From IMG/VR virus record IMGVR_UViG_3300044816_000056, positions 1 through 40,084 of that record: a DNA stretch of 40,084 bases; one strand, given 5' to 3'. The position numbers and the translations under genes are program-made. Shown here piece by piece: positions 3,686 through 30,580 of the stretch. The number at the start of each line of letters is the position of its first letter. Within the stretch, counting starts at the first letter, position 1. Source of the DNA: a virus. The notes below the pieces were generated by a model. That model was given only the letters and a program-made list of their open reading frames with translations, was not told the origin of the DNA and did not search any database.

Positions 3686-4846
3686 CTAGACGGTGTCGTC
3701 GGCGGTGGTGCGGGTGGCGCGGAAGCCGATCGACTGATCACCGCTGGGCATCAGCGGCACGGTGACCGAGTCGAGGATGTGGCGCTCGGAGGGTCGGACG
3801 GTGCCGAAGTCGCCGAGGGGGAAGTAGATGTCGGCGACGTCGTAGGCGTCGAGCGCCGGGTTCGGTGTGGATGTCGCGGTGAGCTGCTGCTGCACGGTTA
3901 GCTGCTTGTTGAGCAGCGTCTTGCCGGCGGCGTCCATCTGGGCTGCGTTGCGGAGCAGTGGTGAGGCGTAGTTGAACACCACGCGACCGAGCGGGCCGAG
4001 GGAGGACAGCGGGTCCGTGGCGGGCGATCGGGTGTTGGCGACCTCGCGCCCGGCGATGATGATGTCCGACGCGGAGGAGGTGATGGCGATGACGTTGTGG
4101 ACGGTGGTCAGGTCCCGGGTGCGGTTGGCGTCTTTCAGGATGCCGGTGGTGCCGGGTTTGATCGTCCACACCGGGACGCTGCCCGTCGTCAAGGTCGGGA
4201 TCGGTCGGAGGACCGCGAGGCCGTTGACGTCGAAGTAGCAGTCCAGGTTGTTGGCCTTCAGGATCGCCATGATGGCGTTCTCGCGGCTGCCGTCGTCCCA
4301 GACGAGCGAGCCGACCTTGGTGGTGGCCGACTGGTCGGGGTTGGTGACGCCGGTCGATGCCCAGCCGGGGAACGGGTAGGCGACGTTCGGCCACGCGGCT
4401 TCGACCAGGCGCTTGACCTCTTGCCAGCCGGCGTTGCTCGCCACCGATGAGCGGGAGACGCCGAACTCGTTGGACTGGATCCGCCACCAGCGGTCCGGGC
4501 ATTTCAGCGTGATCGAGCCGTCCGGGCGGTACCCCATGGATTGGGTGTTGACGCAGAAGATCCCGAGAGGGACGGTCTCGGTGGTGGTGTCGATGAACCG
4601 GTACGTCAGGCTCACCGTCAGCTCGCCGCCCGGAACTGAGAGCAGGTCGAACGTGGATTGCAGCGGCGCGAGGGTCAGGTCGAGTACGCGGCGGACGTTG
4701 GAGTTGACATCCACCGAGACCGTGCCGTCCACGATTGGGATCGTGGTTACCGCGGCGGTGAACGGGTTGCGGTGGGTGACGACCGGGTAGCGGGTCTGGC
4801 TGCTCGAGGTGAGGACCTGCTGCAACTGCGCGCTGATCGGGTACAC
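3686..4846 (-). CDS. Minor tail protein, DUF5047-like
   Basis: A 386-residue protein. The N-terminal strand pattern (YPVVTHRNPF...VDGTVSVDVNSNVRRVLDLTL) and the central KCPDRWWRIQ and FDVNGLAVLRPIP segments match actinophage DUF5047-type tail proteins, which form part of the tail-tip hub downstream of the distal tail protein. It starts with GTG at 4846, one base after the upstream stop region. Gene order (tape measure, distal tail, this, fibres) supports the role. Confidence 0.75.
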   Translation of the reverse strand: MYPISAQLQQVLTSSSQTRYPVVTHRNPFTAAVTTIPIVDGTVSVDVNSNVRRVLDLTLAPLQSTFDLLSVPGGELTVSLTYRFIDTTTETVPLGIFCVNTQSMGYRPDGSITLKCPDRWWRIQSNEFGVSRSSVASNAGWQEVKRLVEAAWPNVAYPFPGWASTGVTNPDQSATTKVGSLVWDDGSRENAIMAILKANNLDCYFDVNGLAVLRPIPTLTTGSVPVWTIKPGTTGILKDANRTRDLTTVHNVIAITSSASDIIIAGREVANTRSPATDPLSSLGPLGRVVFNYASPLLRNAAQMDAAGKTLLNKQLTVQQQLTATSTPNPALDAYDVADIYFPLGDFGTVRPSERHILDSVTVPLMPSGDQSIGFRATRTTADDTV

Positions 4847-4847
4847 G

Positions 4848-6185
4848 TCAGGTCCCGGCGATACCGGTAAGCACCCCGGTCCAGGTGGCGTACTTCGCCG
4901 ACAACGCGGAATAACTGGCCACCTCGACCGCTACGTCTGCCCAGGTGCGTTGCGCCGCGAGACCCCCGATGGGGCGGTCAATCTCGGTGATGGGCAGCGT
5001 CCAGACGTGTTTCGGGTCGCCGAACACCATGGTCACGGGCGTGTCGTTGACCACGCCAACCTTGATGTAGGCCCATTTTGTGGCGGTGGTGAACGGGAAC
5101 GCCATCTGCAGCAGCAACGGTGCGCTGCCTGATAGGAGCGCCTCGAGGTTGTTGTTCTCGGTGGATGTCTGGGTGCGGATCGTCAGTTGGGATTTCGCCG
5201 ACTTCCGCGCACCGTCGTTGACGACCTGGGCGAACTTCCGGCCGAGGATGACGTGCTCGGCCGATCCGTCGTCCATGTCGCGGCCGGTGAGCAGGGTGCC
5301 GTTGATGGGCATGGACAGGCCCGGCACGCCGGGATGCACCAGCCAGGACTGCGTGATCGGCAACGGTGCCGCCGCGACCGATGCCGGGGTGCTGAGATCG
5401 AGTGGGGTGACGGTGTACGTGACGGCGGTGCCGTAGGGCACTTCGTAGTCATAGCCCACCCATGTGCCGGAGGTGAGCGTGGCGGGGTCGCCCAGGCGGA
5501 CGGGCCGGATGTTGCCGTCGGCGTCGGTGCGGGTGATCTGCGCCTGTGTGCCGCTGACCCCGTTGACGTAGAGCAAGTTGCGGGGCGGGCTGTTGAACGG
5601 ATCGGCGTTGACCGTGATCGTCCCAGGCGGGGCGGTGAAGACCGACGTGGACAGGCCCGCGGTGCCGGTCCAGGAGCAGGACGCGAACGACCCGTCGAAG
5701 TAGGTGCCGGCGGCGGGGGTTTCGGTCAGGACCGAGTCGACCCAGGCTGACAGCGGGTAGGAGCCGGACAGGGGCGAGGGTAGGGACCGGTAGACCGATT
5801 TGACGCTGGCGACCGTGGTGGTGGCCGATGCCGTGAACGTGACCGAGATCCGCTGCGGTGACGACGCGGTGCCGGACACCTGGGCGCTGGTCTGACCCGC
5901 TGCGGTGAGGACGATCGGTGATCCGCCGTTGGCGAGATCTTGTTTGATCATCGCGGTAAAGGTGTACTGGGTGCCGACGACGGTGGTGAACGAGATCTGC
6001 GCACCGCACGGGACGTAGAAGCTGGACGCGACGTTCTGAGCCGGCGCCTGCGCCAGCAGCGACTTGGTCCCCACATCGGCCCAGGTCGCGTCCTGCGCGA
6101 TCGTCGCCGACGGCCCGAACGCTGACCAGCCCGCGGTGCTGACCTCGAACGACGGGTTGGTGCACAGGTTGGTCCTGTTGGCCAT
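4848..6185 (-). CDS. Minor tail protein with N-terminal carbohydrate-binding-like domain
   Basis: A 445-residue protein. Residues 1-165 (RTNLCTNPSFEVSTAGW start, beta-rich, Ser/Thr/Gly) look like the carbohydrate-binding-module-like jelly roll found on actinophage tail proteins. The C-terminal half (from about 215) has the distal-tail style beta domain including LTGRDMDDGSAEHVILGRKF. It follows the tape measure immediately, which is the usual place of the distal tail protein. It probably links the tail tube to the tip and contacts cell-surface glycans; the two-domain reading is inferred. Confidence 0.75.
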   Translation of the reverse strand: MANRTNLCTNPSFEVSTAGWSAFGPSATIAQDATWADVGTKSLLAQAPAQNVASSFYVPCGAQISFTTVVGTQYTFTAMIKQDLANGGSPIVLTAAGQTSAQVSGTASSPQRISVTFTASATTTVASVKSVYRSLPSPLSGSYPLSAWVDSVLTETPAAGTYFDGSFASCSWTGTAGLSTSVFTAPPGTITVNADPFNSPPRNLLYVNGVSGTQAQITRTDADGNIRPVRLGDPATLTSGTWVGYDYEVPYGTAVTYTVTPLDLSTPASVAAAPLPITQSWLVHPGVPGLSMPINGTLLTGRDMDDGSAEHVILGRKFAQVVNDGARKSAKSQLTIRTQTSTENNNLEALLSGSAPLLLQMAFPFTTATKWAYIKVGVVNDTPVTMVFGDPKHVWTLPITEIDRPIGGLAAQRTWADVAVEVASYSALSAKYATWTGVLTGIAGT

Positions 6186-15011: not shown

Positions 15012-15776
15012 TTAGCCGGCCGCGGTTTGATGCGCGGCGATTGCGGCGTGGAGTGATGTGGGGCGTTGCTTGCCTTCACCGGTCCCGCCGGTGAATTGGC
15101 CCCCGCTCACGCCAGCCGCCTGGACTGCCTTGAGCTTGGGGTTGCTGGTTACCGCGTCTTTGATCGCGGTCTCGACCTTGGCGGCGAAATCGGCCGCCTT
15201 GTGATCGAGGTCTTTCACCTTCGCCAGGAAGGAATTCGAGTCGAGCAGCGCCGACGGGTCAGCCTGCTGCTTGGATGCGGCCTGGTAGATCGCAAGGTTG
15301 ATCGCGGCGCTCTTCGCTTCGGTCTGGGCGGCCTCGATTTGCTTGGCGAGCTCGGCCGGGTCGGTCGCCGCGTCAGGCTTCAGGCCGAGGGCGACCGCCA
15401 GCTTTTCGGTCAGTTCCTTCTGGGCCTGCTCGGCTGCCGTCTTGCCCTGGACCCGTGCGTCGCCGGCGTCCTTGCGGGCCTCGGTGATGATCTTCTGTGC
15501 CCACTCCGGAAGGTCTTTGACCTCCTGACCCGGGGTGGGTACCGGGGCCGGAGCCGGTGCAGGAGCGGGCGCCGGAGCCGGTGCAGGAGCTGGCGCCGGG
15601 GCCGGAGCAGGGGTAGGCGCTGGCGCTGGGGCGGGCGGTGGATCACCGGCCGGGGCTGAGCCGCCCATGATGGGCCAGATGGGACCACGCTTCGTGTAGC
15701 CGAGGGCCTTCAGCGGCATGCCGGTCAGCGGGTGCCGCAGGTACGGGTGGACGGGCAGCGTGCACTTGGTGCTCAT
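15012..15776 (-). CDS. Scaffolding protein with Pro-Ala repeat
   Basis: A 254-residue protein. The N-terminus (HPYLRHPLTGMPLKALGYTKRGPIWPIMGG) is a short conserved-looking capsid-binding arm. A Pro-Ala dipeptide repeat follows at about residues 47-83, encoded by low-complexity DNA at about 15540-15640. Then comes a long Lys/Glu/Ala-rich coiled coil (about 90-215) and a disordered tail. It should guide procapsid assembly and be lost on maturation. No protease motif is seen in it or nearby. Confidence 0.8.
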   Translation of the reverse strand: MSTKCTLPVHPYLRHPLTGMPLKALGYTKRGPIWPIMGGSAPAGDPPPAPAPAPTPAPAPAPAPAPAPAPAPAPAPAPVPTPGQEVKDLPEWAQKIITEARKDAGDARVQGKTAAEQAQKELTEKLAVALGLKPDAATDPAELAKQIEAAQTEAKSAAINLAIYQAASKQQADPSALLDSNSFLAKVKDLDHKAADFAAKVETAIKDAVTSNPKLKAVQAAGVSGGQFTGGTGEGKQRPTSLHAAIAAHQTAAG

Positions 15777-20773: not shown

Positions 20774-21261
20774 GCGATGAGCCGAAGCAGGTCACCCGGG
20801 GTGACTTCACCGGGCAGGCGGTCGTCGTCGAACAGGTGGACGCCTGCCAGCGCGTAGGCCTTGTCCGCGAGCTGGCTGCAGATCAGGCGGTTCATGCGCT
20901 CAATGCGGCGGGCGATGACGCGGAGGATGGCGGTCGCGACCTTGCGGGGCAGGACGGCGCGGAGGATCACGGCCAGGGCGAGGGCGGCGATGTCAGCCCA
21001 GCCGTAGCCGATGCCCTGCTGCGCCTGCGCCCACACCGCGATCTTGGTGCGGGTGGCGTCCGGTAGCGGCATGCTCGACCAGATCGCGGCGGGGTACCTT
21101 GTCGCGTCGGACTCGATCGCGCCGCCCGGTTGGGCTTCGATGATCCGCCCGTTGCCGATGTAGACGAAGGCGTGGTTGACGGTCGAATGAGTGCCGTACC
21201 GGATCACCCAGGCTGCCCAGCCGTTGGTGCGGACGACGCCGAACGCTCCGATTTCGGGCAT
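20770..21261 (-). CDS. Permuted papain-like (YiiX / NlpC-P60-type) hydrolase
   Basis: A 163-residue protein from ATG 21261. The order of catalytic residues is permuted: a His strand first (VNHAFVYIGNGRIIEAQPGG, H30 with E42) and the Cys later (RLICSQLADKAY, C128). This is the layout of YiiX/YebB-like members of the NlpC/P60 superfamily. A hydrophobic stretch at about 88-116 may be a membrane helix. As the first late gene, upstream of the terminases, it may modify the cell envelope or act in the virion; the substrate is unknown. Confidence 0.75.
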   Translation of the reverse strand: MPEIGAFGVVRTNGWAAWVIRYGTHSTVNHAFVYIGNGRIIEAQPGGAIESDATRYPAAIWSSMPLPDATRTKIAVWAQAQQGIGYGWADIAALALAVILRAVLPRKVATAILRVIARRIERMNRLICSQLADKAYALAGVHLFDDDRLPGEVTPGDLLRLIA

Positions 21262-21331
21262 GGTCTTGTCGCCGCCCTTCGAGTGTTGGGGCGGCGAGGG
21301 TCGCGCCGTGCGGGGAGCCTGGGCATACAAA

Positions 21332-21360
21332 AACCCGCCGACGTGAGCGTCTGGCGGGTT
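21332..21360 (-). terminator. Intrinsic terminator ahead of the late genes
   Basis: On the minus strand AACCCGCC-A-GACG, loop CTCA, CGTC-GGCGGGTT is followed by TTTGT (five consecutive T in all). This is a strong rho-independent terminator that would stop minus-strand read-through from the early operon before the late genes. It implies that late transcription either starts in the 70 bases downstream or depends on antitermination. Confidence 0.7.
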
Positions 21361-21582
21361 GTGGGCATAGTCGTCCTAGCCGCGCTCATGATCGCATTCG
21401 GACATCACGGACGCAAGTACCGCGTGAAGTCCGGCGTGGCGCGACCGGACGGTCGTTCGGATAGTCTCGCTATAACCGCCCCCACAGCTTGCGCTATAGC
21501 TGCCGCCAACTGGCGTGATGACTGTCGCAATAACTCTTGCAATAACTCTTGCGTTATATAATGGCGGAGTTATAGTTGCTCT
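21361..21582 (+). promoter_or_regulatory. HigBA promoter/operator region
   Basis: This is noticeably A/T-richer than its surroundings. Two tandem perfect 12-mers GCAATAACTCTT lie at 21527-21550, with the opposite-facing GAGTTATAGTTGC at about 21568-21580, forming dyads around a consensus -10 TATAAT (21557-21562). A further dyad GCTATA...TATAGC is at about 21469-21500. This is the typical layout of an operator bound by the antitoxin. No good 17-bp-spaced -35 box is visible. A weak plus-strand frame from GTG 21343 crosses the region but is not convincing. Confidence 0.65.
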
Positions 21583-21954
21583 GTGACCTGGCGGGTAATC
21601 CTCCTCGAACAGGTCGATGAGTGGTTCCTTTCCCTCGCCGAAACCGACCCCACAACCAGCGACCTCGTAACCGCAGCGATCGAAGCCCTCGAAGCAGATG
21701 GCCCGGCGCTCGGCCGACCGATGGTGGACCGCATCAAAGGCTCTGCCCGACACAACATGAAAGAGCTACGCCCCGGATCAACCGGCACCAGCGAAATCCG
21801 GATCCTGTTCATCTTCGACCCGTCACGCCGCGCAGTACTCCTAGTCGCTGGCGACAAAGCCGGGCAGTGGAAGGACTGGTACAAAGCGAACATCCCGCTC
21901 GCCGAAGATCGTTACGACGACTGGCTCGCAGGCATGCACGACAAGGAGATATGA
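21583..21954 (+). CDS. HigB/RelE-type toxin (phage-derived Gp49-like)
   Basis: A 123-residue protein with GTG start at 21583. The pattern WRVILLEQVDEWFLSL...VTAAIEALEADGPALGRPMVDRIKGSARHNMKELRP, then IRILFIFDPSRRAVLLVAGDK, is that of the Gp49-like branch of the HigB/RelE superfamily: ribosome-dependent mRNA interferases. Toxin-first order and the adjacent XRE antitoxin fit the HigBA arrangement. Codon choice and the A/T-rich promoter differ from the phage genes around it, and it faces against the early operon, so it is probably an acquired cargo module. Confidence 0.88.
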   Translation: MTWRVILLEQVDEWFLSLAETDPTTSDLVTAAIEALEADGPALGRPMVDRIKGSARHNMKELRPGSTGTSEIRILFIFDPSRRAVLLVAGDKAGQWKDWYKANIPLAEDRYDDWLAGMHDKEI

Positions 21955-21956
21955 CG

Positions 21957-22274
21957 ATGGCACGAACCTGGAAAGAAGTCCGCGCCGAAGCCGCCGGCCG
22001 TGGCCTCATCAACGAGGAGCGGGTGACCACTGAGCGGCAGCGGATCCGCGAGGCCGTGCAGGCCCAGCGGCTCGCCGACATCCGAAAGGCTCAAGGCGAG
22101 ACGCAGACGAGCCTCGCGGGCACGATGCACGTGACGCAGCCTCGGGTCAGCAAGATCGAGCGGGGGGACCTGGCGCACACCGAGCTGGGCACACTGGAGA
22201 GCTATGTCGCGGCGTTGGGCGGCAAGCTGGAAATCGTCGCACACTTCGGCGGCCAGACGATCAAGGTCAAGTAG
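21957..22274 (+). CDS. HigA-type XRE antitoxin
   Basis: A 105-residue protein. The helix-turn-helix is in the C-terminal half (LADIRKAQGETQTSLAGTMHVTQPRVSKIERGDLAHTELGTLESYVAALGG). ATG 21957 is preferred over ATG 21951 because AAGGAG lies 8 bases upstream of it; using 21951 would make an ATGA overlap with the toxin. It neutralises HigB and represses the shared promoter. Confidence 0.88.
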   Translation: MARTWKEVRAEAAGRGLINEERVTTERQRIREAVQAQRLADIRKAQGETQTSLAGTMHVTQPRVSKIERGDLAHTELGTLESYVAALGGKLEIVAHFGGQTIKVK

Positions 22275-22275
22275 T

Positions 22276-22298
22276 CGAACACCCGCGGCGGGTGTTCG
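22276..22298 (+). terminator. Perfect 11-bp hairpin after the antitoxin gene
   Basis: CGAACACCCGC and GCGGGTGTTCG are separated by one base, directly after the antitoxin stop. There is no T-run, and the GTG start candidates of the next gene lie within or at the end of it, so it may limit read-through or hide the next ribosome site rather than being a full terminator. Confidence 0.5.
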
Positions 22299-22474
22299 TG
22301 CGCACGTCGGACGGGTGGACGGTCGATGTCGTCGAGCGCGACGGCCGCAAATGGTTCCGGGTCCTGCACCACGGCTTCCTCACCGGCGGCGGCCCGGACA
22401 AGATGCGCGGCCTAGTAGCCACCATCGAAGAGGTCGAGAAGCTGCTCGGCGACTCGTTCAAGTGCCTGAGCTAG
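22292..22474 (+). CDS. Small protein downstream of HigBA
   Basis: A 60-residue protein from GTG 22292 (or GTG 22298): TSDGWTVDVVERDGRKWFRVLHHGFL, then a helix IEEVEKLLGDSF. It looks like a small beta sheet plus helix protein. It could be a third TA-operon member or an independent gene. Its end overlaps the convergent minus-strand gene by 17 bases. Confidence 0.6.
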   Translation: MFVRTSDGWTVDVVERDGRKWFRVLHHGFLTGGGPDKMRGLVATIEEVEKLLGDSFKCLS

Positions 22475-22700
22475 CCACGCCCTCCCACGATCCGGGCGCG
22501 TGGGGCGGGTCGTAGGTGATGTCGCCGCACTCGAGGCAGGTGTGCGTCCGGTGGCCGGCCGTTCCGGCGCACGTGCACGGATGCCACGAGACCAGCACCT
22601 TGCGGCCGGTCAGCGGGTGGCCGTTCGGGCAGTGCGACGGCGCCGGCTCAACCCAGAAGCCCGACTTGGGATCCTGGACCAGGCCGTGCGTCTCGGTCAT
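22458..22700 (-). CDS. Zinc-ribbon protein, last gene of the early operon
   Basis: An 80-residue protein starting at ATG 22700 in an ATGA overlap. C29 (SHCPNGH) is followed by HPCTCAGTAGH and TCLECGDITYDPP, giving five cysteines and several histidines that probably hold one or two zinc ions. The longer frame to 22946 is a shadow of upstream genes. The function is unknown. Confidence 0.65.
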   Translation of the reverse strand: MTETHGLVQDPKSGFWVEPAPSHCPNGHPLTGRKVLVSWHPCTCAGTAGHRTHTCLECGDITYDPPHAPGSWEGVASSGT

Positions 22701-22867: not shown

Positions 22868-23173
22868 CTAGATCCGGCCACCGACAGTTTCCACGGGCTG
22901 CCACCACGCGGGCGGCTCGACCGTGAGCAGGTGATCGGTCTCGCAACGTAGAACGCCCGGGGGTTCTGCCCGATCAAGCATGACCAGGCCCGTGTCCGGA
23001 TCGGTGGCGAACCTGCTCACCCTCACCAGCGGGGCGTCAATCGTCAGCAGCTCGACGGCGTACACCTTCTCGCGTGACACGCCCATCGATTCGAGCCAGG
23101 CGAGGATCTCTTGCCGTTGCTCGTAGTTCAGGTCTGTCGGGAAGGGCTTGGGGATCGTAACCACGCTGGTCAT
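22868..23173 (-). CDS. Hypothetical early protein
   Basis: A 101-residue protein from ATG 23173, ATGA-coupled to the zinc-finger/HTH gene. It consists of an N-terminal helix (NYEQRQEILAWLESMGV) and a sheet (VYAVELLTIDAPLVRVSRFATD) with a C-terminal extension. I do not recognise a family. Confidence 0.65.
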   Translation of the reverse strand: MTSVVTIPKPFPTDLNYEQRQEILAWLESMGVSREKVYAVELLTIDAPLVRVSRFATDPDTGLVMLDRAEPPGVLRCETDHLLTVEPPAWWQPVETVGGRI

Positions 23174-24165
23174 GCGGTCATCCTCGATTCCTTGGTCTTC
23201 TCACGGAGCAGGTCGACGACGTCGCCCACCCGGTACAGCGGCTTGCCTTCGCCGTCCTCGCGCCACGCGAACAGCCGGCCGCGCTTGTCCATGCCGCGGA
23301 TCTGGCCGGCGGTGACGTGGTAGCCGGCGTCGGTGAGGGCGTGCGCGATGAACTGAGCCGACTCCAGCAGCTCCTCGGACTGCTCCAGCGCCCAGCGCAT
23401 CCGCTCCGACGCTCGGTATTCCTTTCCGCAGCCGAGCAGCTCGCCGGTCTCGTCGTCGCGAGCGCTGCAGCGGATCACCTTCGCACCGGGCCGGGTGTAG
23501 AGCGGCTGGTTGCACACCTGCGGCTGGTCGACCAGCTCGGGCACGACCACCGCGACCGGGCCGGGGGTGACGTCGACGGCCACCGTGACCAGCTCCGTGC
23601 ACAGCCCGGCGTAGCGCTTGCCGTGGTTGTCGACGGCCTGGTTGAGCGCCCGCTGCAGCTGCACCATCGCCGCGTACATCTCGCCGGCCAGCTCGTCCTG
23701 GCGGATGGCCTCGATGTTGGCGGTCAGCCACACGGCCAGTCCGGCCGTGGTGACGGCCGGCGTCCGCTCGATCCGGAAGTCCCGGCACGACTCGTGCAGG
23801 CACGCCGGGTGCACTGGGCCTATGACGGCGACCCTGGTGGTGACGGCGCGCTCGTGAAGGTTCGGGATCTCGGTGATGCCGCGGCTCTCGCACAGATGCC
23901 GGATCCAGGTGGACAGGCCGTTACGGGCCATGTCGAGCAGGTGGCCAGCACGCAGGTCGATCGGCAGCGGCTGGCTGGCCGCCTTGGTGTGGCTGCCGTT
24001 GTCGCGACGGCCGGCGTTGGCCTGACGGTTGATGGTGGTCTGCAGCTCGTCCAGCTGGGCGGGCAGCTCGGCGAGGATCTTCTCCAGCGTCCGGGTGCAT
24101 TGCTCGCACAGGTAGCCCTCGTGCGCTGGCCGTTCGACGCAGGCCGTGCACAGCGGTTCGGTCAC
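23170..24165 (-). CDS. Zinc-finger and helix-turn-helix DNA-binding protein
   Basis: A 331-residue protein. It starts with GTG 24165 in a GTGA overlap; the frame upstream of this is a shadow of the neighbouring gene. The N-terminal finger is CTACVERPAHEGYLCEQC (residues 5-22). A central CNQPLY...VIRCSARDDETGELLGCGKEY adds a second cysteine cluster. A C-terminal winged-helix-like segment (TDAGYHVTAGQIRGMDKRGRLFAWREDGEGKPLYRVGDVVDLL) follows. It is probably a DNA-binding factor working with the replication protein encoded just upstream. Confidence 0.72.
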   Translation of the reverse strand: MTEPLCTACVERPAHEGYLCEQCTRTLEKILAELPAQLDELQTTINRQANAGRRDNGSHTKAASQPLPIDLRAGHLLDMARNGLSTWIRHLCESRGITEIPNLHERAVTTRVAVIGPVHPACLHESCRDFRIERTPAVTTAGLAVWLTANIEAIRQDELAGEMYAAMVQLQRALNQAVDNHGKRYAGLCTELVTVAVDVTPGPVAVVVPELVDQPQVCNQPLYTRPGAKVIRCSARDDETGELLGCGKEYRASERMRWALEQSEELLESAQFIAHALTDAGYHVTAGQIRGMDKRGRLFAWREDGEGKPLYRVGDVVDLLREKTKESRMTA

Positions 24166-24467
24166 TTGGTTGGCCCGTCGTTGCCCTGCTCGGCGTCTCC
24201 ACGCGCGTGACCGGGCAAACGTCCGGGCGCGTCCGGTTCGCCGTCCACGGTGATCTCGATCGGCTTCTTGCTGATCGCCTCGGCCAGGTCGTGAGCGAGC
24301 ATCCACGTCGGGCTGATCGGGCCGGTGTCTCGCAGCCGCTCGGCGATGAACGCCGCGGCCTGCTCCAGCTGGGCCGGCGTCAAACCGTCGATAGGTTGCT
24401 TGGCCGCCGGGGCGTCGATGGGTTTCGAGGCGGGGATCAGCCAGCCGGCGCTGTCGTATTCGGTCAT
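24162..24467 (-). CDS. Small protein linking replication and HTH genes
   Basis: A 101-residue protein, ATGA-coupled to the polymerase fusion and GTGA-coupled to the next gene. The helix LTPAQLEQAAAFIAERLRDTGPIS is followed by a second helix (WMLAHDLAEAISKK) and a disordered acidic tail. No family is recognised. Its tight linkage suggests co-production with the polymerase. Confidence 0.6.
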   Translation of the reverse strand: MTEYDSAGWLIPASKPIDAPAAKQPIDGLTPAQLEQAAAFIAERLRDTGPISPTWMLAHDLAEAISKKPIEITVDGEPDAPGRLPGHARGDAEQGNDGPTK

Positions 24468-27400
24468 GAGGCGTCCTTCCAGGAGAAGCTAGGTTCGGAC
24501 GCCTCGGCTTTGATCGAGACCCCGAACAGGGTGGTTTCCATGGCCGCCACGAGGGTGGCGGTGGCTTCGGCGGCGTCGGCTTCGGGCACGAACACCAGCA
24601 CCTCGTCATGCACCGGCATCAGCACGGCGTTGCCCCAGCGGGTGTCGCGCCAGCGCATCAGCGTGTCCACCAGCAGCTCGCGGGCGGTGCCCTGCACGCA
24701 GTAGTTGAGGGCCTTGTGCGGCAGCTTCTGGTCCAGGTGGATGACCCGGCCGGAGTAGCTCTCGTACTTCGTCATGCCACCCTGCACGGCCCTCTTGAGC
24801 CCGGCCGTCCAGCTGGCCAGCTGCGGCGTCATCGCATCCAGTGAGGCCACGATGGCGTCGGCTTCGATCTCGGAGATGCCGAGGGTGCGGGTGATGCCGG
24901 GGATGCCGGAGCCGTACAGCCGGCCGAAGACGGCTCGCTTGGTGTTGTAGCGGTCTTCCTTCGTGGCGTCAGGGCCGTACGCCTGGCGGGCGATCTCCCA
25001 GTGCAGGTCGATGCCGTTGTCGAGCATCGTGATTAGGGTCTGGTCCTGGCTGAGTGCGGCCGCCACCCGGACTTCGACGCTGGCGAAGTCGGCGGACACG
25101 ATCAGCTCACCCGGGTCGGCCGTGACGCAGGCGCGCATGCCGCCTTGGCGCGGCACCTGCTGCAGGTTGGGCCGCACGCAGGACATCCGGCCGGTGTCCG
25201 CGCCGAGCGTGTAGACCGTGGGCCGGGCCCGCCCGTCGCCGCGGTGCACCAGCTGGGCGTAGGGCTCGAGGAACAGGCCCAGCACGGTCTCGTGGTGCTG
25301 GTAGTCCAGGCGGGCGCGGACCAGGTCGCCGACCGGGCCGTCAATCTTGGCGAACGGCTCCAGCACGCCCTTGGCCACACTCGGCCGGCCGGTCTTGGTG
25401 TGCGCCAGCGGTGCGCCCATCTCGATCAGCTTGGCGCCGACCTGCTGGTCAGAGCCGGGGTTGTCGATGCCGAATGCCTGCAGCCTTGCGCCGGCGGCCG
25501 CGAGGGCGTCGCGGTGCTCCGGCAGCTTGGCGTTGACGTGCTCGGCGTCCAGGCGCACGCCGTGGTGAGCCACGCGGGCGGTGAGCCGTTGGGCGGTCCG
25601 CTCGCGCTCCAGGACGTGCGGCGGGACGGCGGGGAGGATCTTGGCCAGCGCGGCGGTGTCGAGAACGTCGGAGGCCGCGTAGCGAACCATCGTCGTGCAG
25701 GCCGGATCCACCTGGGCCCAGCCGGAGCGCTCGAGCGGGGTGGTGGCCTTCGTGTCGGTCAGCCACTTACCCGCCTTGAACAGCGCCGCCCGGGCCCCGT
25801 CGGCCGCCGGCGCGGTGGCGGAGTCGCCGAGCACCGCGGCGGCCAGCTGCTTGAGGCCGGGGTCTGAGCCGGTGGACTGCGGGTCCGCCAGCTTGGCCGG
25901 GATCACCGTGTCGTGCATGCGGTCCCACGCGGCGTCCAGGTCGAACAGCTCGAGCGCGGCGAGCGGCACAAGATCCGCGGTTGCGGAGTGCGCGTGCAGA
26001 ACCTGGGCGTCGTGCAGGATCCGGCTGGCGAGTCCCGCGTGGGCCGGGTCGGCGGCGTCGAACACCAGGGCGGCGTGCTCGTTGCCCAGCTGGATCGTTC
26101 GGAGCGCGTAGTCGGCGTGCCCGATCGGGTAGCCCGTGGTCTCGACGTCCACCGTCAGCTCGGCGAGCATGCCGAAGGCCTCGACCAGTTCGGGCACGTT
26201 GGCGAGGTCGATCGAGCGGACCGAGCCGTCGCGGGTCACCACGGCCGGCAGTGTCACCAGCTCGCCGGCGGCATCGGCGATCGCCGCGGCCAGCGCCTCC
26301 GCCTTGGCGGCCACCTTGGCCGCGGCGCGCTCCGCCGGGTCGACCTTGGTGCGCTTGGGCTTGGCGGCCGTCGCCAGCTGCGCGGCGTCCCGGGCGTGAG
26401 CCTCGGCCTTGGCCGCCAGCAGGGTCGCCACGAGCTGCGCGGCGAACGTCGGGGGCGGGTTCGACGTGTGTGGAGGGTAGGTGGGGGCCTTTTCGGACTG
26501 TTGTGGAGGGTCCGCCGGGGCGCTACCCCCCGTATTTACTGGATTGGTGGGGGGTGTGGAGGGTGTGGGGGGTGGAGTGTCCCTCTCTTGCGTATATGCG
26601 CGTGTGTGTGCGCGTGCGTGATTAATAGGGTTAAGACCCTCCACACCCTCCACACCCTCCACCCGGGGTGCCCCCGCCCCAGCGATTACCGGCGTTTCCT
26701 GGTGTGGAGGGTTTGCCGCCGAACCCTCCACAACCCCTCCACCGGAGAGCCACGAACCGAGGGACCGGACGCGCAGTGCGCGGTAATTTCCGTTGCGCCG
26801 CTTGATCGCCGGGTAGCCGAGCTTGTTGAGCTCGATTCCCCATTTGGGCAAACTGGGCGTCGCTGAGTCCTTCATGCCCATGTCGCGCGCCCATTCCACG
26901 AACGCTCTGCGAAGGTCGTGGGCAGGTGTGCCGGCGTCGAACGGGTCGCACGCGCCCTCCACCCAGGCGTTGACCACGTTCTGCTCGGCCGCGATCTCCT
27001 CGGCGCGGTATCGGTAGCGCTCCGGAGCTGATTCGGTCCGCCCCGTGTTCTCATCAGCCAGCCACCCGGCCGCCTCGCGCATCAAGGCCGCCAGCACGCC
27101 GGGGGCTTCCGCCCGCCATGCCGGCCCGGATGGGCTGCCGATAGCGCGCCGAGCCGCGATGACCTCGACCGGGTCGCCTTCACAAGGGATGAGCCGGACC
27201 CGTCGCCGGACTGCCGGATCGGTCAGCAGCGGCGCCTCGTTGGCGGTGAGCACCAGGGTGTGCGTGGGGGTGAAGGTGATCGGGTTTCGGCCCATGTCGT
27301 TACCGGTGAGCTCGCCGCCCCCAGTGAGCTGCTTGAGCCGCTCCTGACTGGACGCGCTGTCCCGGGGCGCCTCGTCGATGAATGACAGCCGGCGGCCTTT

Positions 27401-29206
27401 CAGGGCCGTGACGATCGAGGCGTGAGAGCGATCGGTGCCACCCAGCAGCCGGGGGTCCGCCGCGTGGGCGTACGAGCCGAGCACCGACATGATGAGCACG
27501 ATCACCTGGGTCTTGCCGCGGTCACCTTCGCCGACCAGGATCGGCAGCACCTTGGCCGCGTCCCCCGTGACGGCGACGGACAGCACCCGCAGCGCCCAGG
27601 CACGCAGCTCGGGATCTGGCCAGACGGCCGCGGTGAAGGCATCCCAGAGCGGCGTCGGCCGCACCAGCGGAGCGACCGCGGCCGCGCGCAGGTGCGGGGT
27701 GGACGGGTCGACGAACGCCTGGGTCGGCTGGTCGATTGACGCGCGCAGATCCCACGCGACTCCGCCGGCCCAAAGCAGCCACGTGTCCCGGTCCAGGTCA
27801 GCAGCAGCGACGGCGCAAGGGTGCGTGCCGCCGGCGAGCAGCGCACGCATCTTCTTAGCGATCGCTCCGGACGGCGCGGCGGACATGAATCGACGGCGAC
27901 GATCGGCCTGAGAGCGCGCGTCGGTGCCTTTGTCCGCGTCGGGATCACCGTGCGGCATGAGCGCCGCGACCTCGGTGATCGCCCACTCGGACAGGTCGGT
28001 GAGGTCCTCCCAGTATTCGGGCCCGCGTCGGAGCCAGCCGTGGGAGTCGTAGGCGTAGCGCATCACCGGGAACATCCGCTCGAGGACCGCCTGGCCGAGG
28101 TGGTGGTCCAGGTGGAACAGCGGGTCGAAAAGGTGCGCGCCGATGGCTTCCCGCACGCTCCACGCCCGCGGCGGCGCGATCGGCTCGGCTGGGTCTCCGC
28201 CGGGCAAACCACCGGGTGACGGGGCCGGGACGAGTGTGAGGCCGATCGACTCGAAGCAAGGGTCGCGGTCAACGGGCGCGGTGCGCCCGACGCGCGTAAC
28301 CGCCTTGCGGGCGGCGGTAACGAACATCCGCAGCCACTCGTCACCGCGGTCCTCGCCGGCGGTGATCCGCTCCCACAGTTCCGTCAGCTCGTCGAAGGCC
28401 GTGCCCAGGCCGGGGTGACCGTCCGCCGCGAGCTGCACGAGGTTCCACGCCCGGTCATCAGCCGCATCGTGACGGGTGCCGGTGGTGGACGCTTCGATCA
28501 GTCGGTGTGCGTCCAGCAGCGCGGTGGCCATCTGGGCGCACGCCGGCCGGTCGTCGTCCGAGATCGCCGACCACATCTGCTCGCCGTCGGACTGCGGCGC
28601 GGCCAGGTCGGTGACGCCGGAAGCGCCCTCACGCAGGCCGGCCACCCACGCCTCGGGCAGTTCGGGCAGCTCGTTCGGCTTGGGCGGCGGTGACGGTAGA
28701 TTCCGCGGGTCGTACCACTGATAGACCGCGCCGGCGCCCACATGGAGCGAGGGCCAGACGACGGCGTAGCGGTGGTGGCGCTGGATGATCTCGACGTCCG
28801 GGCCGAGCACCGTGGCGTAGCGCTCGACCGGCACGCGGAAAAACATGATCTGGCTGGGGCCGGGGCCGGCTTCGCTGCCGCGGGCGGTGCTCGACCAGGT
28901 CGCCGGCAACGGCCCCCAGCGCTGCCAGGCCGCGTTGACGGTATCGGCACCGCGCTTGGTCACCTCGCCTTTGACGTACTCGTCGACGTCGATACCGATG
29001 ACGCCTTCGGGCATCCGGATCGCGATCGAGCTGTCGGCGTGGCTGCCGGCCCAGCGCACCAGCTGCTCGGGGTCGGCGTCCACGCCGCTGGCGCCGGTGA
29101 AGCCCGCCGGCGGCGGCGTCTTGGTCTCAGGCGGCACCGGAACGACCGGCCAACCGGCCTGCGCGTACGCGAGGACCGAGTCGGCGAAGGGGCGGGGCTG
29201 GTTCAT
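24464..29206 (-). CDS. Fused AEP primase / SF3 helicase / DEDDy exonuclease / family A DNA polymerase
   Basis: A single 1580-residue chain. Domains in order: AEP-type primase-polymerase, about 1-195 (metal site GIDVDEY with D73 and D75; HRYAVVWPS near 145-153); D5-like region, about 340-520; SF3 helicase, about 540-690 (Walker A GEGDRGKT 559-566, Walker B LSFIDEA 607-613, sensor LVLTANEAP 651-659) and a winged-helix-like region to about 815; disordered Pro/Gly linker 820-930; 3'-5' exonuclease with intact DEDDy set D1020, E1022, D1078, Y1176, D1180; polymerase with motif A D1373, motif B R1419, K1423, F1427, Y1431 and motif C VHDE with D1534. All catalytic motifs are present, so one protein could prime, unwind, copy and proofread. 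These are normally separate proteins. The frame is open throughout. Confidence 0.93.
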   Translation of the reverse strand: MNQPRPFADSVLAYAQAGWPVVPVPPETKTPPPAGFTGASGVDADPEQLVRWAGSHADSSIAIRMPEGVIGIDVDEYVKGEVTKRGADTVNAAWQRWGPLPATWSSTARGSEAGPGPSQIMFFRVPVERYATVLGPDVEIIQRHHRYAVVWPSLHVGAGAVYQWYDPRNLPSPPPKPNELPELPEAWVAGLREGASGVTDLAAPQSDGEQMWSAISDDDRPACAQMATALLDAHRLIEASTTGTRHDAADDRAWNLVQLAADGHPGLGTAFDELTELWERITAGEDRGDEWLRMFVTAARKAVTRVGRTAPVDRDPCFESIGLTLVPAPSPGGLPGGDPAEPIAPPRAWSVREAIGAHLFDPLFHLDHHLGQAVLERMFPVMRYAYDSHGWLRRGPEYWEDLTDLSEWAITEVAALMPHGDPDADKGTDARSQADRRRRFMSAAPSGAIAKKMRALLAGGTHPCAVAAADLDRDTWLLWAGGVAWDLRASIDQPTQAFVDPSTPHLRAAAVAPLVRPTPLWDAFTAAVWPDPELRAWALRVLSVAVTGDAAKVLPILVGEGDRGKTQVIVLIMSVLGSYAHAADPRLLGGTDRSHASIVTALKGRRLSFIDEAPRDSASSQERLKQLTGGGELTGNDMGRNPITFTPTHTLVLTANEAPLLTDPAVRRRVRLIPCEGDPVEVIAARRAIGSPSGPAWRAEAPGVLAALMREAAGWLADENTGRTESAPERYRYRAEEIAAEQNVVNAWVEGACDPFDAGTPAHDLRRAFVEWARDMGMKDSATPSLPKWGIELNKLGYPAIKRRNGNYRALRVRSLGSWLSGGGVVEGSAANPPHQETPVIAGAGAPRVEGVEGVEGLNPINHARAHTRAYTQERDTPPPTPSTPPTNPVNTGGSAPADPPQQSEKAPTYPPHTSNPPPTFAAQLVATLLAAKAEAHARDAAQLATAAKPKRTKVDPAERAAAKVAAKAEALAAAIADAAGELVTLPAVVTRDGSVRSIDLANVPELVEAFGMLAELTVDVETTGYPIGHADYALRTIQLGNEHAALVFDAADPAHAGLASRILHDAQVLHAHSATADLVPLAALELFDLDAAWDRMHDTVIPAKLADPQSTGSDPGLKQLAAAVLGDSATAPAADGARAALFKAGKWLTDTKATTPLERSGWAQVDPACTTMVRYAASDVLDTAALAKILPAVPPHVLERERTAQRLTARVAHHGVRLDAEHVNAKLPEHRDALAAAGARLQAFGIDNPGSDQQVGAKLIEMGAPLAHTKTGRPSVAKGVLEPFAKIDGPVGDLVRARLDYQHHETVLGLFLEPYAQLVHRGDGRARPTVYTLGADTGRMSCVRPNLQQVPRQGGMRACVTADPGELIVSADFASVEVRVAAALSQDQTLITMLDNGIDLHWEIARQAYGPDATKEDRYNTKRAVFGRLYGSGIPGITRTLGISEIEADAIVASLDAMTPQLASWTAGLKRAVQGGMTKYESYSGRVIHLDQKLPHKALNYCVQGTARELLVDTLMRWRDTRWGNAVLMPVHDEVLVFVPEADAAEATATLVAAMETTLFGVSIKAEASEPSFSWKDAS
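26469..26743. other. Iteron array with Z-DNA tract, putative replication origin inside the polymerase gene
   Basis: Seven exact copies of TGTGGAGGG or its complement start at 26469, 26502, 26555, 26637, 26646, 26703 and 26724, plus one-mismatch copies at 26564, 26655 and 26735. The copies at 26637-26663 are in perfect 9-bp tandem. Left and right groups face each other around 26589-26620, where 32 bases alternate strictly pyrimidine-purine (T-G, C-G, T-A steps), followed by ATTAATAGGGTTAA. The array coincides with linker residues about 822-913. Both orientations are used although they encode unrelated peptides (VEG versus PPH or PPQ), which argues for selection on the DNA. Confidence 0.6.
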
Positions 29207-30144
29207 GCGGTCCTTCCAGTGGGCATCGCTGCCGGGATGCCGTTGCGTTTGCGGAATACGGCCAAGGTGTTCGGTGCGCGGCCGAGGCGCGTCTCGATCG
29301 CGCCGTCGCTCCAGCCGAGGGCCACCAACCGGCGCACGGCCTCGGCGAGCTCGGGGCTGGTGTGGAATTCGGTGTGGCGGAGGGTTCCGGCCATCAACCG
29401 ATCCACGGCGACCTCGTCGAGCTCGGCCGTGGTGGCCGCCTTGCCCTCGAGCACGGGCAGCCTGGTGACGGGCCGCTCCAGCAGGTCGCGGGTGACGTAG
29501 CGCTTGATCGTCCCGATGCGTTGCGCGATCTCGGCTTCGGACAGGCCGCGCTTGGTCATCAACGCCACTCGAACCGGCCGCGGCAGCGTCACGTCATCGA
29601 TGAGCACCGTGCCGCGGTAGGAACGGGTGCCTTCCGGCTGCGCCTGCGGGTCGTCGATGCTGTCGTCGTCCCACCAGATCGGCGGGAGCCAGCCGCGGCG
29701 GCGTGCGGTCTCTCTAGCCCGGCTGGACGGCCCGGGGATGTCGCGCAGGTCCTCGTAGAGCGCCATGACCTGCTGGGCCCACTCGGCCCGCATCAGGGGC
29801 ACCCGGGCGGTCTGTATCTGGGTTACGCCGAGGCGCTTGGCGAGATCGCGCTTGGGGTAGCCGATAGCGACGAGGGCCTCGATCCGCCGGCGAGTTCCAG
29901 CCGCAGGAACCAGGCCGTCGATGGAGACGCCGCGGTTGAGCCGGGTGCGCAGCAGTTTCTCCGCCGTACCTTGACGAATCTGCATTGATGCTGAGCGGCC
30001 GGGATGCTCGCCCAGCATGACCTGGATAGCGGTGCGGTTCACGCCCGACGCGAATTGGATCTGAGACAGGCTCATGCCGCCGGCCAGCAGCGCCTTGACG
30101 TGCTGGCGTGCCGGTTCGGCGTCGACCTGATCGGAATAGGGCAT
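29203..30144 (-). CDS. Multi-helix-turn-helix DNA-binding protein
   Basis: A 313-residue protein starting at ATG 30144 (TGATG overlap). It has at least four HTH-like segments: 17-44 (AGGMSLSQIQFASGVNRTAI), 90-113 (AIGYPKRDLAKRLGVTQIQT), 196-222 (TKRGLSEAEIAQRIGTIKRY) and 271-300 (ALGWSDGAIETRLGRAPNTL). Between the second and third lies GWLPPIWWDDDSIDDP, a motif recurring in actinophage HTH proteins. It is ATGA-coupled to the fused polymerase. Several DNA-reading units in one chain would suit binding to repeated sites such as the 9-mer array; that link is inference. Confidence 0.72.
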   Translation of the reverse strand: MPYSDQVDAEPARQHVKALLAGGMSLSQIQFASGVNRTAIQVMLGEHPGRSASMQIRQGTAEKLLRTRLNRGVSIDGLVPAAGTRRRIEALVAIGYPKRDLAKRLGVTQIQTARVPLMRAEWAQQVMALYEDLRDIPGPSSRARETARRRGWLPPIWWDDDSIDDPQAQPEGTRSYRGTVLIDDVTLPRPVRVALMTKRGLSEAEIAQRIGTIKRYVTRDLLERPVTRLPVLEGKAATTAELDEVAVDRLMAGTLRHTEFHTSPELAEAVRRLVALGWSDGAIETRLGRAPNTLAVFRKRNGIPAAMPTGRTA

Positions 30145-30338
30145 CAGAAGCACTCCCCCGCGTGAACCAGGAAGCAGCGCGGGCAGCTGCGCTCGGTCGG
30201 GGCCAGCTCCAGCTCGGGCGGCGGGCACTCGAGGTGCACCAGGTCGTCGCGGGCGTTGTAGGCGGCTTCCTGCCCGGGCACGATCGGGCCGGTGCATTCC
30301 TCGCAGGTGCCGTGGTACTGCGCGGTGAAGGTGCTCAT
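30144..30338 (-). CDS. Zinc-ribbon protein
   Basis: A 64-residue protein: CEEC at 12-15 (HGTCEECTGPIVPGQ), LECPPPE, and CPRC at 52-55. The TGTCEECxxPIxxGxxA pattern resembles actinobacterial Zn-ribbon proteins that look like LIM/treble-clef knuckles. It is coupled to the multi-HTH gene by TGATG. The function is unknown. Confidence 0.68.
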   Translation of the reverse strand: MSTFTAQYHGTCEECTGPIVPGQEAAYNARDDLVHLECPPPELELAPTERSCPRCFLVHAGECF

Positions 30339-30400
30339 CGATCTGCCGCAGATTCGAGCAATTGCGCGGATGCCTGGACAGCACCGGCAGACTTAGGGGT

Positions 30401-30580
30401 ATGCAACGACAAGTGACGATGTTTGAAGAGGATCTCGACCAGGGGCTGCCCCAGATCCAGCTCGCGGTCAACCAGGTCCTGGCCAACTACACCGATGAAG
30501 ACTGGACGCTCGAGCAGGTGGTTCAGCATCGGACTGACACGTCGATTGAGTTCGCGCTCTACTGGGTGAAGGACGACTGA
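30401..30580 (+). CDS. Plus-strand acidic mini-protein in the early region
   Basis: A 59-residue protein from ATG 30401 (AGGGG immediately upstream; ATG 30419 is an alternative). Helix-rich and acidic: FEEDLDQGLPQIQLAVNQVLANYTDEDWTLEQVVQHRTDTSIEFALYWVKDD. It opposes the early operon, so it interrupts the minus-strand gene string between 30339 and 30582. It is possibly expressed from the lysogen. No family is recognised. Confidence 0.6.
   Translation: MQRQVTMFEEDLDQGLPQIQLAVNQVLANYTDEDWTLEQVVQHRTDTSIEFALYWVKDD

Follow-up and report, generated by a model that had tools for sequence, protein, structure and literature searches.

The window analysed here is an entire IMG/VR virus record of 40,084 bases. 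Its minus strand contains a long open reading frame that codes for a fusion replicase. The gene, its domains and its two flanking neighbours are as follows.

24464..29206, minus strand: ORF of the fusion replicase (1580 aa), in the order PrimPol, SF3 helicase, winged helix, array-bearing linker, 3'-5' exonuclease and family A DNA polymerase
28670..29173, minus strand: Prim-Pol domain, PF09250, residues 12-179 (Pfam, E 1.5e-21)
27212..27538, minus strand: SF3 helicase core, PF19263 DUF5906, residues 557-665 (Pfam, E 6.3e-08)
26762..26977, minus strand: C-terminal winged helix, about residues 744-815, predicted origin-binding domain (AlphaFold2 models)
26786..26803, minus strand: codons 802 (K) to 807 (N) of the wing; residues 802 and 807 covary with bases 3 and 4 of the motif, respectively
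25634..26191, minus strand: 3'-5' exonuclease domain, PF01612 (DNA_pol_A_exo1; Pfam)
24500..25462, minus strand: family A DNA polymerase domain, PF00476 (DNA_pol_A; Pfam, E 8.2e-46)
29203-30486: HTH-type gene, phrog_1590 type, flanking the fusion
23170-24609: HTH-type gene, phrog_908 type, flanking the fusion downstream

The PHROG matches of the fusion are to DNA primase and DNA polymerase families, and the fold of the helicase core matches helicases of the PrimPol/D5 type. No O-type initiator family is present among the Pfam or PHROG matches, and a megablast search of the fusion gene against named phages gives no match. In the mechanical ORF list, the phrog_908 type gene and the 3' end of the fusion ORF have 146 bp in common.

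The iteron array in the coding linker

Between the C-terminal winged helix of the helicase and the exonuclease/polymerase half, in the same open frame, lies an array of short repeats. An earlier reading of the letters alone (the sequence-only reading) had counted there seven exact and three one-mismatch copies of the 9-mer TGTGGAGGG, in both orientations, at 26469-26743; our recount gives the same numbers. The array is made of the following elements.

26469..26477, plus strand: opposite-arm iteron, exact TGTGGAGGG
26502..26510, plus strand: opposite-arm iteron, exact TGTGGAGGG
26555..26572, plus strand: tandem iterons of the opposite arm, exact at 26555, one mismatch at 26564
26589..26620, no strand: central alternating purine-pyrimidine run, 32 bp, uninterrupted, the longest of the record; candidate unwinding element
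26637..26663, minus strand: tandem iterons of the gene-sense arm, exact TGTGGAGGG at 26637 and 26646, GGTGGAGGG once at 26655; period 9 bp
26703..26711, plus strand: inverted iteron, exact; with the copy at 26724 it makes the conserved + to - pair of 18 bp
26724..26743, minus strand: outer gene-sense iterons, exact at 26724-26732, one mismatch at 26735-26743

An extra one-mismatch copy is found outside this interval, at 26955 (-). The 450 bp past the helicase domain contain 9 copies of the best 8-mer, occurring in both orientations and without overlap, compared to a maximum of 3 in 100 dinucleotide shuffles and of 4 in the rest of the record (173 other windows); a second iteron cluster was not found elsewhere in the 40-kb record. 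Counting the 9-mer over the whole phage, which had been proposed as a check, gives a total that is just mildly high: with at most one mismatch there are 20 copies in the window for 13.45 expected, and 20 is reached in 5 of 100 shuffles. The signal of the array is therefore the cluster itself.

The melting-prone segment that had been described between the two arms is also found. The 55 bp that separate the arms have a G+C content of 53%, against 68% for the record, and the 32-bp alternating run at 26589-26620 compares with a second-longest run of 15 bp. Alternating purine-pyrimidine tracts are prone to adopt the Z-DNA conformation, and we infer that this one may serve as an unwinding element.

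On the contrary, the skew switch that had been put forward as a sign of the origin is absent anywhere in the window: GC skew is weakly positive through nearly all of it, and lends the origin reading no support. A sigma-70 promoter scan of the region returns no promoter-like site. A terminator scan returns one terminator-like match within the array, at 26516-26532 (+), for a regional total of 4 where 2.5 are expected. Elsewhere in the window, we note a local dip in G+C (0.63) at 21000-22500, where the positive GC skew is lost and which is possibly a regulatory stretch; it includes a 12-bp tandem repeat, GCAATAACTCTT, at 21527-21552. Tandem repeats of 24 bp, of the GCCGGAGCCGGTGCAGGAG type, occur at 15542-15641, probably in a repetitive coding linker.

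The peptides encoded by the two orientations differ (VEGVEG and TPPPTPSTPP), as the sequence-only reading had pointed out, and in the relatives described below the iteron copies fall in several reading frames, so that repetition at the protein level does not explain the copies. In the frame that would create a stop codon, there are none of the 113 gene-sense copies of the TGA type; for comparison, this frame is used by 4 of 63 copies of other motifs, and by 12 of 78 and 12 of 44 inverted copies. The array is thus under coding constraint, yet it is not the product of codon repetition. It could be argued that the copies only reflect the repetition or the composition of a low-complexity linker, which is indeed rich in Pro, Gly and Ala and repetitive in protein; however, this explanation is refuted by the two orientations, the several frames, the spacings of 8, 11, 18 and 48-51 bp, and the presence of the same kind of arrays in the non-coding DNA of unfused relatives.

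Recurrence and concerted change of the array in relatives

Searching IMG/VR for exact matches to the 18-mer TGTGGAGGGTGTGGAGGG retrieves 12 stretches. In nine of them (seven distinct ones, L008/L016 and L012/L013 being near copies), copies in both orientations are accompanied by a relative of the helicase of the fusion or of its polymerase half. The array is again within a fusion ORF in L007, L010 and L011; in L006, L008 and L009, the helicase gene is unfused and the array adjoins its 3' end; in L012/L013, a two-orientation array lies about 3 kb from the helicase gene and does not adjoin it. The stretches L005, L014 and L015 contain the 18-mer alone, with neither helicase nor array, and look like chance matches. 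The intergenic region of L009 (8900-9165), by a Staphylococcus-phage-like helicase, mixes two kinds of iterons, TGTGGAACTT and TGTGGAGGGT, which perhaps correspond to two specificities or to a transition between them.

The closest relative, L017 (on the same contig as L021), has a fusion that is 76% identical to that of the window. Loss of the repeats in close relatives that keep the gene had been named as an observation that would count against an origin, and L017/L021 are literally devoid of TGTGGAGGG; however, the repeats are not lost but replaced, the array being written as TGTGCAGGG/GGTGCAGGG in both orientations. The peptides shift with the motif, from VEG to VQG in one arm and from PS/PP to PC in the other.

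We compared 54 loci, which are the window and 53 loci from helicase searches (L021-L056; L057-L065, from Nocardioides, Micromonospora and other actinobacteria; L066-L073). Genomes of Nocardioides and Micromonospora, such as those of Nocardioides sp. Root190 and Micromonospora sp. MW-13, contain prophages of this kind. Most of the related loci share the fusion, and the open tail past the helicase is 725-1058 aa long in most. A dense array in both orientations (a score of at least 5, in copies of both orientations, over the 450 bp past the helicase end) is present in 39 of the 54 loci, while the maximum over 100 shuffles of each of the 54 loci is 4; L038, L040 and L053 have a score of 4, which exceeds that of their own shuffles. 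Twelve loci do not stand out in this 450-bp test. L045, L046 and L052 are weak candidates, no better than shuffles, and L056, L062-L065, L070, L071 and L073 have no array of note in the 450 bp past the helicase end. In L042 (7573-7850), the array is further away, 577-848 bp past the end of the helicase, but it remains within the frame of the fusion. The relatives L070, L071 and L073, which are 48-50% identical and in which no array was detected after the helicase, may have moved or replaced their origin.

The motif is specific to the lineage (TGGAGGGT, TGACGGGT, TGAAGGGT, TGCAGGGT, TGTCGGGT, TGACGGAT, TGGCGGAT, TGACGCAT, TGACCAGT, and GGACAGTT in L068), and all copies, in both orientations, are altered together. 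The geometry is shared: one spacing signature is common to 25 of 41 non-redundant loci, whereas random placement of the same copy numbers produces it in 0.005 loci on average and in 1 at most (200 draws). Read in the sense of the gene, a forward copy is followed after 17-19 bp (18 bp in 21 of the 25 loci) by an inverted copy, then, 47-52 bp further, by a forward tandem pair with a period of 8-9 bp and, 63-102 bp past this pair, by the first inverted copy; 24 of the 25 loci have an additional copy about 11 bp ahead of the first. In 24 of the 41 loci, no alternating purine-pyrimidine run of the locus is longer than the one in the array (12-47 bp), and many other loci have a markedly AT-rich centre instead (e.g., L035, L044, L048 and L050).

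The element might also be a cruciform or a stem-loop, whose stem arms, and not protein sites, would be the repeats. The origin of pRN1 is described in this way, as a 100-nt stem-loop located 3' of a PrimPol/SF3/winged-helix gene, in passages of PMC4234260 whose authors extend the description to a phage, and the inverted tandem arms of the window could pair over a loop of about 60-100 nt. We consider this very unlikely. The tandem spacing is unequal between the arms in at least nine loci (L022, L024, L031, L034, L035, L036, L042, L048 and L050), so that a continuous stem is apparently not maintained; the two orientations alternate along the array (+ + - + + - -); and the letters of the motif covary with residues of the wing, for which a stem alone has no need.

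Covariation of the iteron with the wing of the winged helix

The motifs were assigned from the DNA first, and every column of the aligned fusions was then scanned (43 loci), except those of the linker, since the linker itself encodes the repeats. L053, L064, L066 and L068 had been set aside before the covariation count because they are distant or of uncertain register; by eye, L066 has the expected K at residue 807, and L053 has T and L068 has V instead of the K or N that would be expected. Mutual information with base 4 of the motif peaks at residue 807, and mutual information with base 3 peaks at residue 802 if artefacts due to singletons, such as 1313, are disregarded. Residue 807 is N in 13 of the 16 loci with A at base 4 and in none of the 27 loci with C; residue 802 is H in 22 of the 27 loci with A at base 3 and in none of the 16 others. 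Independent pairs were counted on a tree built without the winged helix and the linker (1501 columns, 2877 column-residue tests). The association of 807=N with A at base 4 is found in 6.3 of 7 pairs and that of 802=H with A at base 3 in 6.8 of 8, with no pair in the opposite direction in either case, and each ranks first of the 1501 columns.

The same change is seen between close relatives: L031 has GKRR with TGACGGGT and L034 has GNRR with TGGAGGGT; L026/L027 have GKRR with TGACGGGT and L028 has GNRR with TGAAGGGT. The exceptions at 807 are R in L035 (A at base 4), H and V in the TGCA loci L021 and L067, and, among the loci with C at base 4, W in L044, L058 and L052, V in L047 and G in L072.

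In the AlphaFold2 model (pLDDT 89), residues 802 and 807 are on the two strands of the wing (801-803 and 806-813). When the winged helix is modelled in isolation (AlphaFold2, pLDDT 87), its best structural match is 1ka8, the origin-binding domain of P4 (Z 8.6, rmsd 2.2 Å, 75 aligned), and it also matches RFX5 (Z 8.5) and RFX1 (Z 7.5); we treated Z values within 1 of each other as tied. RFX1 contacts the major groove through its wing and strands, according to the part of PMC8998557 that deals with it, and a contact of this kind by the wing is what the covariation suggests in the fusion.

Considering that the best columns, 807 and 802, are in the wing, the likely binder of the array is the C-terminal winged helix of the fusion itself, and not the neighbouring multi-HTH protein that the sequence-only reading had supposed. 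HTH-type genes (of the phrog_1590 type at 29203-30486 and of the phrog_908 type at 23170-24609) do flank the fusion, and the product of either could bind the array; but it is the SF3 helicase that is the shared neighbour of such arrays in distant contigs and named phages, and the covariation, in a scan that covered the fusion protein, peaks in the wing of the helicase. Binding by a neighbouring HTH protein is therefore extremely unlikely in our opinion.

Outside the fusion family, the code is partly retained. Among distant unfused helicases found from the DNA first, the position equivalent to 807 is N in all four that are next to TGTGGAGGG (TGGA) arrays (L006, L008, L009 and L013) and in L131 (TGAA), but not in L134 and L140; next to the TGTGACGGG arrays of TGAC loci, it is N in none of six, R in five (two of which are near copies) and W in one. 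L111 and L120, which are near copies, are both counted in this tally; L104, whose array is 2 kb off on the other side, was dropped, and the tally does not include L075, L096, L097, L105 and L119, which belong to the fusion family. By eye, this position is N in Listeria PSA (TGGATAGTT array), R in Lactobacillus CL2 (TGACGGAT), V, followed by N, in Staphylococcus IME1365_01 (TGAATACC) and I in P4 (GGTGAACA). In sum, N occurs with A at base 4 in 6 of 10 cases and with C in 0 of 7. The rule for 802=H fails in the distant TGAC loci (0 of 6), although P4 and L131 do have H. Judging from these alignments, the wing code appears strong within the fusion family and partial outside. If it is true, exchange of residues 802 and 807 for those of the TGAC class would switch the preference of the protein between TGTGGAGGGT and TGTGACGGGT.

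The position of the array is more widely conserved than the code. Among 67 DNA-first stretches, 15 held a helicase by profile; the neighbours of 14 more were looked at, and adjacent proteins were searched for 10. Ten more two-orientation arrays were found in this way, and in 10 of 10 a DUF5906 helicase gene ends 0-88 bp before the start of the array, which suggests that the rule of position is wider than the 802/807 code. Seven of these ten genes have a Toprim or DnaG-type primase domain; the ten helicases were kept off the wing columns, as their C-terminal ends are unlike the winged helix studied here. The loci in question (L133, L123, L086, L084, L126, L136, L122, L080, L107 and L113) have TGAAGGG or TGACGGG arrays within 88 bp of the helicase stop codon. 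In phiC31, Didgeridoo and Samy, relatives with unfused primase and polymerase, no array adjoins the primase, so that the rule of position is not universal among primase/PolA actinophages. In phiC31 (L018), we observed repeated palindromes of the CTACTCACGTGAGTAG type around gp9a and gp11 (3950-3980, 5950-5980 and 6150-6170), which are not an iteron array.

Known systems and the function of the array

In phage lambda, the iterons of the origin are within the coding sequence of the initiator O. The parallel with lambda that the sequence-only reading had drawn is correct as regards the position inside a gene, but not as regards the kind of initiator: O is not an SF3 helicase, and lambda has one iteron set beside an AT-rich stretch, whereas the window has an SF3-helicase system.

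Closer parallels exist. Like the alpha protein of P4, the fusion is an SF3 helicase-primase with a C-terminal winged helix, and P4 crr also consists of short iterons in both orientations, with a 9-bp tandem and an 18-bp pair, directly 3' of the gene. By eye, the residue equivalent to 802 is H in alpha, with a TGA motif, but P4 departs from the 807 rule. Unlike the array of the window, crr is outside the alpha gene, its motif is GGTGAACA and there is no fused polymerase; the primase of P4 is of the Toprim type, as stated in the primase section of PMC4234260, a domain that the fusion lacks and in place of which it has Prim-Pol PF09250.

The origins of PICI satellites are located immediately 3' of rep and always have two iteron sets that flank an AT-rich region, a lay-out that is said in a passage of PMC6092414 to be 'shared by ... 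no other known bacterial replicon'; the phage arrays described here, at the level of their sequences, speak against its being restricted to PICI. Compared to this type and to P4 crr, the window has the SF3 helicase with its C-terminal winged helix, the two iteron sets on both sides of a melting-prone centre, and the position of the iterons immediately 3' of the helicase part, but in the same reading frame; PICI origins are non-coding, in satellites rather than in a 40-kb phage, and without polymerase fusion. The C-terminal domain recognises the origin in SaPI Rep, and that of the SCCmec helicase Cch2 binds in vitro iterons of a putative origin downstream of its gene (both from passages of PMC7581432). 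In the fusion, the signs of a possible iteron binding by the C-terminal domain are the covariation and the match of the predicted fold. Cch2 differs from the fusion by its three 5-nt AAGTG iterons, outside the coding part, and by its separate primase-polymerase. Streptococcus phage Sfi21 has an annotated 302-bp origin and phage-inhibitory sequence directly 3' of the primase gene, in which an 8-bp tandem pair of TTAGTTAC is followed by an AT-rich centre of about 80 bp and an inverted 8-bp tandem pair; unlike the array of the window, it is non-coding, with the motif TTAGTTAC and no fusion. ORF904 of pRN1 combines PrimPol, SF3 and winged-helix domains, with an essential cis element 3' of the gene, but in the account that PMC4234260 gives of it this origin is a stem-loop without iterons, outside the gene. 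In lactococcal phage 1706, GP55 unites helicase, AEP primase, polymerase and exonuclease in a single protein, but the polymerase is of family B and the text of PMC12205980, as far as available, does not mention iterons. In the literature, in which few subscription papers were covered, so that this is a weak negative, we found no account of an iteron origin within a PrimPol/PolA fusion, nor of a wing code.

The proposal that the linker doubles as an origin-type element thus gains from the same place, geometry and concerted change of motif in dozens of relatives, and further from the covariation of the wing and from the position and lay-out of P4 crr, PICI and Sfi21. We estimate at about 85% the probability that the array is the replication origin of the phage, or at least an initiator-binding cis element, of the P4-crr/PICI/Sfi21 type. 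From these comparisons, it is very likely an origin-type iteron array bound by the phage's own protein, and likely the actual start of replication. What sets it apart from the known kin is the in-frame fusion of the downstream polymerase gene across the element, through which the candidate origin is translated as a linker.

It may be that the winged helix binds the array but that the latter is merely regulatory, serving in autoregulation or as an accessory site like crr, and that replication starts at another place. In P4, the same repeats occur in an ori and in a crr distinct from it, which means that an array of this kind is not necessarily where replication starts, and the array of the window is located within the initiator's own gene. 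However, the 40-kb record contains no second cluster, in Sfi21 and PICI arrays laid out in the same way have been annotated as the origin itself or tested as such, and a conserved melting-prone centre suits an origin better than an operator. We therefore consider a purely regulatory function unlikely, and favour the array as an origin.

In the mechanism that we propose, the wing of the winged helix would read the variable dinucleotide of the iteron (TG-NN-GGGT). An A at base 4 would be read by N at residue 807 and a C by K; an A at base 3 would be read by H at residue 802 and a G mostly by K or R. Helicase rings would assemble on the two arms, then the centre would melt, the PrimPol domain would prime and the polymerase domain would extend. 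A single gene would hold initiator, helicase, primase, polymerase and origin.

A broader reading has, in our view, an even chance of being correct: a clade of actinobacterial phages would keep its origin in the frame that encodes its own initiator-replicase, and one gene would thereby be a complete replicon; the wing would read the iteron by a simple code (802/807 for bases 3/4) that is in part general to SF3-helicase phages; and a Z-DNA-prone tract would replace the AT-rich melting element in GC-rich genomes. If so, the origins of thousands of phages would be predictable from sequence. For dozens of phages, the candidate origin is placed in the coding linker of a multi-domain replicase, a case in which protein and DNA sites appear to stay matched while both change. 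A two-residue recognition code is offered for a widespread and little-studied class of phage initiators, whose helicase domain Pfam still names DUF5906, a family of unknown function, and the alternating purine-pyrimidine tract is proposed as an unwinding element in GC-rich genomes. The position of the array may provide a rule, based on sequence only, for locating the origins of SF3-helicase phages, satellites and prophages.
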